NCBI GenBank assembly: GCA_002707785.1
Contig: PANW01000032.1
Coordinates: forward strand, 82,363-146,362
Direction of reading: 5' to 3'
DNA: 64,000 nucleotides
Origin: Cellvibrionaceae bacterium
GTDB taxonomy: Bacteria; Pseudomonadota; Gammaproteobacteria; Pseudomonadales; Cellvibrionaceae
Within the stretch, counting starts at the first letter, position 1, and each line of letters starts with the position of its first letter. A program made the position numbers and the translations under genes. The notes under the pieces were generated by a model. That model was given only the letters and a program-made list of their open reading frames with translations, was not told the DNA's origin and made no database searches. Below, piece after piece: positions 29,223 to 32,516 of this stretch.

Positions 29223-29306
29223 CGTTTCACTACTGCCACTGATTCTCACGATCCAACCGCAGTAACCCAAGCTCTTTTGATACACAGTCAACAACGGACA
29301 CACTCC

Positions 29307-30896
29307 ATGACCCAACTTGTTAAAGTTCAGCGTGCTTTAATTAGCGTCTCTGACAAAACCGGTATCGTTGAATTTGCCCAAGCCCTCAGTGCTCAAGGCG
29401 TTGAAATTCTCTCCACCGGCGGCACCTTCCGCCTGCTGCAGGAAAACGGCGTAGCCGCTATCGAAGTCTCTGACTACACCGGTTTTCCGGAAATGATGGA
29501 CGGTCGCGTAAAGACCCTTCACCCAAAAGTTCACGGTGGAATCCTAGGTCGTCGCGGTACCGATGATGCGGTCATGAACGAGCACGGCATCACTCCAATC
29601 GACATGGTTGTGGTTAACTTGTATCCCTTTAAAGCCACCGTTGCCGATCCTAACTGCGATCTACCGACGGCGATTGAGAACATCGACATCGGCGGCCCGA
29701 CTATGGTTCGCTCAGCGGCGAAGAACCACAAAGACGTTAACATTGTGGTCAATGCTGGTAACTACGACGCCATCATTGCTGAGATGCAAGCCAACGGCGG
29801 CGCCACCAGCTACGAAACCCGCTACGACCTGATGGTCAAAGCCTTCGAGCACACCGCTCAATACGACGGCATGATCGCCAATCACTTCGGTCGCCGCCCT
29901 TCTACCTTCGCCCCTGGCGAAGTAGATACACGCAACTTTTCCAACACCTACAACGTTCAGTACGTTAAAACTCAAGACATGCGCTACGGTGAGAATCCTC
30001 ACCAAAAAGCGGCTTTCTACGTTGAAGAAGATGCTAAAGAAGCGTCAGTTTCAACCGCCAAGCAGCTACAAGGTAAAGAGTTGTCGTTCAACAATGTTGC
30101 CGATACCGACGCCGCGCTAGAAACCGTTAAACTATTTGACGAACCAGCCTGTGTCATCGTTAAACACGCTAATCCCTGTGGTGTGGCCGTAGCGACCGAC
30201 ATTAAAACCGCTTACGAATTAGCCTTTGCCACCGATCCAGAATCCGCTTTTGGTGGCATCATCGCCTTCAACCGCGAGCTGGATGCGGAAACCGCACAGC
30301 TGATCGTCGACAAGCAATTCTCTGAGGTCATCATCGCGCCTAGCGTTTCCGCCGACGCCGCCGCAGCCGTGTCAGCCAAGAAAAATGTTCGCCTGCTTGA
30401 GTGTGGCGAATGGGGCGCCGAACGCCCTGTAGCTTACGATTACAAACGCGTTAATGGTGGCCTGTTGATCCAAGAAAAAGACAACGGCATGGTCAGTAAA
30501 GACGACCTAAAAGTGGTGACCAAAGCTCAACCCAGCGATGAGCAAATGGACGAACTACTGTTCGCCTGGAAAGTTGCCAAGATGGTTAAGTCCAACGCCA
30601 TTATTTACGCCAAAGACGGCCGCACGATCGGTGTCGGCGCGGGCCAAATGAGCCGCGTCAACTCTGCTCGTATTGCCGCCATTAAAGCCGAACACGCTAA
30701 CCTAGAAGTCAAAGGCGCAGTCATGGCATCTGACGCTTTCTTCCCTTTCCGCGACGGTATCGACAACGCGGCGAAAGTGGGCATCAGTGCGGTCATTCAG
30801 CCCGGTGGTTCTATGCGTGATGAGGAAGTGATTGCCGCGGCCGACGAGCACGGAATGACGATGGTATTCACCGGCATGCGCCACTTCCGTCATTGA
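29307..30896 (+). CDS. purH: Bifunctional AICAR transformylase/IMP cyclohydrolase
   Basis: [36 protein letters not shown]…[12 protein letters not shown]…KHANPCGVA. Confidence 0.97.
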
Positions 30897-30897
30897 T

Positions 30898-31015
30898 AAA
30901 AATGCTCCTGTGACGCGATGGTGGCGTTGCTTCGGTGCTCGGTCGGTCACGTACACTTGTACGCTCCCTTCCTGCGCTCCGAGGCGCCTTACCCTCACAC
31001 CACAGGAACATTTTT
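30898..31015. repeat. ~118-bp imperfect palindrome (copy 1)
   Basis: Outer arms aaaaatgctcctgtg … cacaggaacattttt; apex cgtacacttgtacg. Confidence 0.8.
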
Positions 31016-31091
31016 CTTCAACGACGACTTCTTAATCGAAGAAATCAATTTAGATTTGTTTTTGTTGGTTTAATGATAAGCCTCTAAACAA

Positions 31092-31210
31092 GGAGCTTAG
31101 CTAAGTGTTCCTAGCAAGGCGCGATGTCGATTTTGTGAGGGAGTGTACTCAAGTACATGACCGATCAAAATCGGCAACGCAACGCCGCTAGGGACGCTTA
31201 GATAAGCTCC
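31092..31210. repeat. ~119-bp imperfect palindrome (copy 2)
   Basis: Outer arms ggagcttagctaagtgttcctagc … gctagggacgcttagataagctcc; apex tgtactcaagtaca. Confidence 0.88.
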
Positions 31211-31226
31211 GACAAAGGACAAAAAA

Positions 31227-32516
31227 ATGAACGTACTAATCATTGGCTCCGGCGGCCGCGAACACGCGCTCGCTTGGAAGGCCGCGCAAAACCCCAACGT
31301 TGAAACCGTTTACGTGGCCCCCGGTAATGCCGGTACGGCGACCGAAGCCGGTCTGAAAAACGTCGCTATCGATGTGATGGATTTCGACCAGCTCGCCACC
31401 TTTGCTAAAGACAACAATTGCGGCTTGACCATTGTTGGCCCTGAAGCGCCGCTGGTTGAAGGTGTGGTGGATTATTTTGCCGAGCAAGGCTTACGCGCCT
31501 TTGGTCCCTCCAGGGGAGCCGCGCAACTGGAAGGATCCAAAGCCTTCACCAAAGATTTTTTGGCCCGCCATAAAATCCCGACCGGTGAATACCAAAATTT
31601 CACCGAAGTGGAACCCGCACTGGCTTATCTGCAAGAGAAAGGCGCACCGATCGTGGTTAAAGCCGACGGTCTCGCTGCCGGTAAAGGTGTAATCGTTGCT
31701 GAAACGTTGCAGCAAGCGGAAGACGCCGTGAAAGACATGCTATCTGGCAACGCCTTCGGCGAAGCCGGTTGCCGCGTCGTCATCGAAGAGTTTCTCGACG
31801 GCGAAGAAGCCAGCTTTATTGTTATGGTCGATGGAAAAAACGTTGTCGCCATGGCCACCAGCCAAGACCACAAACGTGTAGGCGACGGCGATACCGGCCC
31901 CAACACCGGCGGCATGGGCGCATACTCCCCAGCGCCGGTTGTCACTGCCGATATTCATCAACGCATTATGGATGAAGTCATCTACCCAACCGTTAACGGC
32001 ATGGCCGCTGAAGGCAACGATTACACCGGCTTCCTCTACGCCGGCCTGATGATCGACGCTGCCGGCACGCCGAAAGTGATCGAGTACAACTGTCGCTTTG
32101 GCGATCCAGAAACCCAGCCGATTATGCTGCGCATGAAGTCCGACATGGTGGATTTGTGTGAAGCTGCTATCGATGGTGAACTGGCCGGAAAAACGACCGA
32201 ATGGGACGAGCGCTGCGCCGTGGGTGTGGTACTGGCAGCGGGTGGCTACCCTGCTTCCTATGAAAAAGGCCTGCCCATCTCTGGCTTACCCAGTGAAGCG
32301 ATTGCCGGTGAAAAGGTGTTCCATGCGGGCACTCAATTATCGGGCGATGATGTGGTTACCAGTGGTGGCCGCGTACTCTGCGCCACCGCTCTAGGCAACT
32401 CAGTCACTGAGGCTCAAGCTCGTGCTTACGACCTGACACGTCAGATTGACTGGAAAGATGTCTACTTCCGTAACGACATTGCCTACCGAGCAATCGCCCG
32501 AGAAGCAGAGAGCTAG
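31227..32516 (+). CDS. purD: Phosphoribosylamine-glycine ligase
   Basis: MNVLIIGSGGREHALAWKAAQ…GPEAPLVEGVVDYF…ADGLAAGKGVIVA…EYNCRFGDPETQP. Confidence 0.97.
   Translation: MNVLIIGSGGREHALAWKAAQNPNVETVYVAPGNAGTATEAGLKNVAIDVMDFDQLATFAKDNNCGLTIVGPEAPLVEGVVDYFAEQGLRAFGPSRGAAQLEGSKAFTKDFLARHKIPTGEYQNFTEVEPALAYLQEKGAPIVVKADGLAAGKGVIVAETLQQAEDAVKDMLSGNAFGEAGCRVVIEEFLDGEEASFIVMVDGKNVVAMATSQDHKRVGDGDTGPNTGGMGAYSPAPVVTADIHQRIMDEVIYPTVNGMAAEGNDYTGFLYAGLMIDAAGTPKVIEYNCRFGDPETQPIMLRMKSDMVDLCEAAIDGELAGKTTEWDERCAVGVVLAAGGYPASYEKGLPISGLPSEAIAGEKVFHAGTQLSGDDVVTSGGRVLCATALGNSVTEAQARAYDLTRQIDWKDVYFRNDIAYRAIAREAES

Follow-up and report, generated by a model that had tools for sequence, protein, structure and literature searches.

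Two palindromes in the gap between purH and purD of a Cellvibrionaceae bacterium very probably belong to the superfamily of repeats that includes ERIC/IRU. The members of this family are imperfect hairpins of about 120 bp with a conserved core and freely changing, self-complementary arms. Our analysis suggests that the two copies are most likely remnants of small palindromes that were once mobile, now either tolerated or put to use as hairpins of 3' untranslated regions and leaders that would affect RNA stability, as is reported for the ERIC of Yersinia.

Two hairpins between purH and purD

The window, which is the whole 64,000-nucleotide stretch of DNA that was analysed, carries purH (29277..30896) and purD (31227..32516) on its forward strand. 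Copy 1 (30898..31016) begins 1 nt past the purH stop (30896), and copy 2 (31092..31210) ends 16 nt from the purD start (31227). These distances agree with the earlier note on this DNA, which had placed the elements just past the purH stop and just before purD. Its description of them as back to back was too strict, as a non-palindromic spacer of 75 nt separates the copies. Below, G-form denotes the strand that reads GGGAG...TGACC, and C-form denotes the complementary strand. The motif of copy 1 lies on the reverse strand, antisense to purHD, with the C-form in the mRNA; that of copy 2 lies on the same strand as purHD, with the G-form in the mRNA.

Each copy is an imperfect hairpin of 119 nt, and ERIC is a single long stem-loop of about 127 bp. 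As RNA, the motif strand folds at -63.3 kcal/mol in copy 1 (z -7.8) and at -72.6 kcal/mol in copy 2 (z -11.8), and for each copy 0 of 200 dinucleotide shuffles equalled the fold. The two long imperfect palindromes described earlier are thereby confirmed. The apex of copy 1, GGGAGCGTACAAGTGTACGTGACCG (30944..30968, reverse strand), is composed of GGGAGCGTAC-AAGT-GTACGTGACCG and contains tandem GA/GA mismatches and a G.U pair. The apex of copy 2, GGGAGTGTACTCAAGTACATGACCG (31139..31163, forward strand), is composed of GGGAGTGTAC-TCAA-GTACATGACCG. Both read GGGAGYGTAC-N4-GTACRTGACCG, with a compensatory C-G to T-A difference between them. The common part extends beyond the apex that had been recognised and includes a basal box, GCAAGGCG / CAACGCCGC (T/GCAAGGCG ... 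CAACGCC). In copy 2, the 5' side of the box, GCAAGGCG (31114..31121, forward strand), occupies conserved columns both of alignment A1 and of 75 model matches, and the 3' side, CGCAACGCCGC (31178..31188, forward strand), occupies conserved columns of A1. The arms are private to the locus. Folds of orthologues indicate that the outermost palindrome arm of copy 1 takes in the last codons and the stop of purH. Aligned end to end with a covariance model of 106 positions (R1), copy 1 scores 66.0 bits over 30906-31007 and copy 2 scores 83.2 bits over 31099-31203.

Within the genome itself, the apex occurs at two places when up to 3 mismatches are allowed, both in the purH-purD gap, and the model finds two strong and two weak copies. 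The element is not a dispersed repeat of tens of copies. The two copies are related, oppositely oriented members of one palindromic family, as had been proposed; as a repeat family it holds across genomes and not inside this one. One weak match (contig C40:38528-38630, reverse strand; 22 bits) lies motif-sense, 9 nt 5' of tRNA-Met. The other (C40:46337-46422, reverse strand) is a degenerate relative in the folB/folK region that has kept the basal box (GTAAGGCG ... GCAACGCAGCA) and has a different apex.

Relation to ERIC and spread across phyla

The core of the elements corresponds to the region of the two ERIC-PCR primers. Copies of ERIC from E. coli were retrieved with the joined core of these primers and held out of the model; R1 was built without any enterobacterial sequence. 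It nevertheless scored canonical E. coli ERICs at 24.6 bits (E 4e-5) and 26.1 bits (E 1.5e-5), a variant between hsdM and hsdR of E. coli at 51.5-60.5 bits, and variants in Ewingella and Citrobacter at 56.3 and 55.3 bits. In a search of about 80 gaps between purH and purD, among them many that hold long palindromes of other kinds, R1 matched the true family members and nothing else, so it does not reward palindromes as such. Since a model of non-enterobacterial sequences finds ERIC and its variants, we class the elements as distant ERIC-like elements.

The elements share with ERIC/IRU/RU-1 a length of about 120 bp, a single long imperfect hairpin, an intergenic position with the motif antisense beside stop codons, the apex GGAG-N-NTAC-N4-GTAN-N-TGAC and the basal box AAGGCG / GCCAACGC. 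There are also clear differences. Classical ERIC has terminal TA with a TA target duplication (PMC2229807 Table 1), whereas neither window copy has this duplication or a TA flank on both sides. The arms of ERIC follow a genome-wide consensus, whereas those of the window elements are locus-specific, and the genome holds two clear and two weak copies. ERIC has been a typing marker for decades, and the literature assigns it to Enterobacteriaceae and Vibrionaceae (PMC10969869); the hosts here lie far outside these two families. What is new in comparison with ERIC is the lack of TA ends, the private arms and the distant host, together with a core found across phyla under one placement rule.

Other known repeats resemble the elements less closely. 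REP/BIME are also extragenic palindromes, often right after stop codons, but they measure 20-40 bp and carry GTAG/CGTC tags (PMC3733652); the core here is larger and different. QMITE2 of Coxiella, which is reported to reside mainly in 3' untranslated regions (PMC10969869), and other bacterial MITEs are likewise small palindromic elements. The Correia elements of Neisseria (CREE/NEMIS) are small mobile palindromes with CAAGGCG...GGCAACGCCG in common, but their apex is different or missing, and the Correia terminal repeat TATAGTGGATTAA is absent from copies 1 and 2. In a 1.7-kb search, the model scored a Correia element of Neisseria gonorrhoeae (L312:410-495) at 23.3 bits, the match resting on the basal box of that element, CAAGGCG / GGCAACGCCG. 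When the entire gonococcal record was searched, no Correia copy was matched, and the lone match there (L314) is not a Correia element. A relation to the Correia elements is kept only as a lead. Two gonococcal sequences labelled as plasmids (NZ_CP119140.1, NZ_CP119142.1) are 2.17 Mb long, the size of a chromosome.

The core is widespread. A scan of 84,980 species genomes (257 Gb) with an apex pattern of 19 fixed bases matched at least 120 stretches, against about 2 matches expected by chance (2 x 257 Gb / 4^19). Among the matches listed, the exact apex occurs in Bacteroidota, Bacillota, Lentisphaerota, Verrucomicrobia, Coriobacteriales, 'Deltaproteobacteria' and Gammaproteobacteria; the hosts among them include Porphyromonas and other Bacteroidales, Lysinibacillus, Sporosarcina, Psychrobacillus, Clostridiales, Pseudomonas, Lysobacter, Citrobacter and Ewingella, as well as Coriobacteriales, Lentisphaerae, Verrucomicrobia and 'Deltaproteobacteria'. 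Across 144 own-family genomes, the true pattern gave 6 matches and a reversed control gave 1. Model matches were present in 52 of 143 own-family genomes at E <= 0.01 and in 72 of 274 genomes sampled across the class at E <= 1e-4. Copies per genome range from 1 up to 72 in Porphyromonas somerae, with 33 in Ewingella. The pattern matches also have the basal box, TGCAAGGCG ... GCAACGCNGC, with a helix on each side of it.

The likeness of the two copies could in principle be fortuitous, given that their outer arms have no sequence in common and that the gap attracts many unrelated palindromes. The count of at least 120 stretches against about two expected in 257 Gb, the whole-element scores of 66 and 83 bits and the failure of the model to match the unrelated purHD palindromes refute chance similarity, to which we give practically no weight.

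The structure of the family is conserved, and its arms covary. In 28 diverse members, 90.7% of cells were paired, 13 of 20 pairs had two-sided changes, and the covariation score was 0.375, compared with 0.115 in shuffled and 0.03-0.09 in slid controls. The earlier note would have abandoned its family for an apex unique to this locus and arms without covariation; in fact, several phyla have the apex, and covariation of the arms is observed. In every lineage examined, the apex keeps two adjacent G.A oppositions (GA over AG) beside a G.U pair. Apex letters were forced by the exact pattern in alignment A1 and were free to vary in the 75 model-found matches, in which the four G.A positions read G in 70, A in 73, G in 71 and A in 67 of the 75. 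The copies of P. somerae are MITE-like, with terminal repeats of about 16 bp (GAGAATGTTGCACGAA / GAGACTGTTGCACGAA) and, by eye, apparent target duplications of 4-6 bp such as ATTAA, CTCAT, TTCTT and TACTT. In other hosts the arms are entirely different, and so are the ends.

Databases offer little on these elements. Rfam (Rfam 15) gave no match at the gathering score in the window and has no family for ERIC or these elements; in 18 related loci its matches were limited to rRNA, tRNA, 5S, group II intron and riboswitch. Neither the apex pattern nor copy 2 matched viral contigs, phages or plasmids, and a literature search for the apex letters returned unrelated primers and reads only. A methanotroph as the host was rejected, as the PmoA family gave no match. 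At three loci of Lysobacter and Lysobacterales (L055, L100, L118), an element seems, by eye, to occupy the same spot by a uppS-like gene. The 3' part of another locus (L112) contains a 110-bp unit five times in tandem, with the apex motif in each.

Orientation, age and upkeep of the elements

Where an element adjoins a stop codon, its motif nearly always runs antisense to the gene. Orientation was counted for open frames of at least 150 codons with a stop within -25 to +45 nt of either element edge, the right being the 3' end of the element in its G-form. Among model-found gammaproteobacterial elements, the stop lay on the right in 22 and on the left in 1; the non-redundant cross-phylum elements comprised 23 right-only, 0 left-only and 6 with stops on both sides. 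Because the arms are palindromic, stop codons within them cannot yield such an asymmetry. Copy 1 obeys the rule, as do the ERIC that E. coli carries at ybhI and its hsdR variant, and De Gregorio and colleagues (2005) reportedly saw the same preference beside stop codons for the ERIC of Yersinia.

By 16S, 23S and tRNA genes, the G-form is nearly always sense and just upstream. The motif-sense hairpins lie 9-20 nt 5' of 16S and tRNA genes, the distance to tRNA-Met in the own genome being 9 nt. A 16S-adjacent G-form is present in Sporosarcina, Psychrobacillus and one Coriobacteriales genome, a 23S-adjacent one in two own-family genomes (L004, L005), and tRNA-adjacent ones in Bacillota, Coriobacteriales and Gammaproteobacteria, with a single antisense exception by a tRNA (L092).

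Copy 1 is old, as other genera have orthologues of it in this position. The gap was surveyed in 81 genomes of the family (80 retrieved gaps and the own genome), and 12 of the 81 carry an element there. Eleven have the C-form directly 3' of purH (G000, G112, G117-G121, G126, G127, G139, G052); they come from five genera, can be aligned across their variable middle parts and are therefore taken as one inherited element. The remaining genome, G040, has a G-form just 5' of purD, like copy 2, and, by eye, its purH is followed by a hairpin resembling the C-form. Within the own genus, G114 and G113 have palindrome-free gaps of 28 or 58 bp, and the gaps of G115 and G116 contain palindromes of other kinds. 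G112 has one element there, and the own genome has two. The empty sites of G114 and G113 are too divergent to define an insertion junction. The earlier suggestion of mobile palindromes thus fits MITE-like family members elsewhere, in P. somerae; a recent private insertion of copy 1 is ruled out by its same-site orthologues in other genera. The gap itself is a hotspot, with long palindromes of several unrelated types in many genomes, for example GTCATCCTCGCG..., GTAGGTTGGGC... and GGCGGATGCGCC.... With an element in 12 of 81 gaps and unrelated palindromes in many, the element is not required at purH-purD.

The arms of the purHD orthologues differ strongly, yet 94.5% of cells are paired, and 26 of 41 pairs have two-sided changes. 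Their covariation score is 0.494, compared with 0.18 in shuffled and 0.07-0.15 in slid controls; relatedness of the sequences inflates these scores, and the slid controls retain that relatedness. In several orthologues the palindrome extends across the purH stop into the last codons. The last purH codons of G112 read TTT AGG CAC TGA, as against TTC CGY CAY in most relatives, and its distal arm is complementary to them, which suggests correction of one arm from the other by hairpin templating. For upstream genes in general, the pairing between their coding bases and the distal arm was too noisy a signal to be of use, and the purHD cases alone are cited here.

In 91 of 92 elements, the G-form folds more stably as RNA than the C-form does, with a mean of -56.8 against -45.1 kcal/mol. 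Register-based counts of G-U pairs in the arms appeared strongly biased (33:5 in alignment A2, which is dominated by two columns of related sequences, and 25:1 in A1). This bias vanished when both strands of the 92 elements were folded without bias (197 vs 200), and we do not claim selection of the arms on one RNA strand. Equal numbers on both strands leave the arms without a sign of such selection, and upkeep at the DNA level fits equally well. The arms look maintained at the DNA level.

Possible roles of the hairpins

ERIC at the 3' ends of genes is reported to make upstream transcripts less stable and less abundant by way of an RNase E site, with a crucial role for its orientation (PMC2229807, PMC10969869). 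We propose that the elements spread as non-autonomous mobile palindromes, most of which would now be vertically inherited, and that hairpin-templated correction may largely keep their arms complementary. The G-form, when transcribed, would act as a processing or decay signal for RNA upstream of the element. It would be harmful in the 3' untranslated region of an mRNA, where the C-form alone would survive, but leaders of stable RNAs could carry it without damage or even with benefit. A G-form that marks upstream RNA is the simplest reading, since it covers both contexts. We hold this decay mechanism tentatively, as a plausible candidate. The joint account, of ERIC/IRU superfamily members with mobile spread, arm correction and an RNA decay signal on the motif strand, seems to us rather probable. 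At purHD, copy 1 would represent the benign 3' untranslated variant. Copy 2 would be a hairpin of the leader type and could reduce the amount of purH mRNA compared with purD mRNA, a putative regulation of the purH:purD ratio. Against the decay model, copy 2 is motif-sense and also downstream of purH, where it is predicted to be costly for purH.

The elements might instead be neutral MITE relics, selfish debris whose orientation rule reflects insertion and not RNA action. This reading is a reasonable though somewhat doubtful one. The transposon-like copies of P. somerae, with their terminal repeats and apparent short target duplications, speak for it, as do the patchy presence at purHD and the lack of a strand bias in the G-U pairs of the arms. 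However, internal-loop bases (GA/GA, AA x GCA) are kept across phyla, although hairpin-templated correction should erase them, and the orientation rule is the same in lineages with differing terminal repeats. A function at the DNA level, in which a transposase or a replication or repair protein would read the motif-strand hairpin in single-stranded or cruciform DNA, appears unlikely. The motif strand can indeed form its hairpin in DNA (z -5.0 and -8.1), tandem G.A pairs have stability there as well, and the upkeep of the arms is without RNA-strand bias; but the placement follows transcribed genes, antisense after stops and sense before rRNA and tRNA, and no partner gene was found.

The earlier note had also raised attenuation between purH and purD. 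The flanks of copy 1 are rich in A and in T (AAAAATG...CATTTTTC), and A/T runs occur at the ends of some Bacteroidales members, as intrinsic terminators or attenuators would have them. The scan of the gap gave two minor terminator-like sites only, both on the strand opposite purHD and no direct support for such a role, and in other purHD orthologues, among them G112 and G118-G121, no U-run follows the hairpin. We consider this role improbable.

The locus alone is a modest find, two members of a family. The family would readily account for many long hairpins that lack annotation, both in the gaps between bacterial genes and in rRNA and tRNA leaders; Rfam covers none of them. A bolder and still speculative view is that ERIC is one branch of a cross-phylum palindrome superfamily, whose G.A-rich core would be a universal RNA processing or decay signal, moved by unrelated transposon ends, placed antisense behind mRNAs and built into the rRNA and tRNA leaders of several lineages. 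If the core is common to several other phyla under one placement rule, the origin and function of ERIC become a general question.
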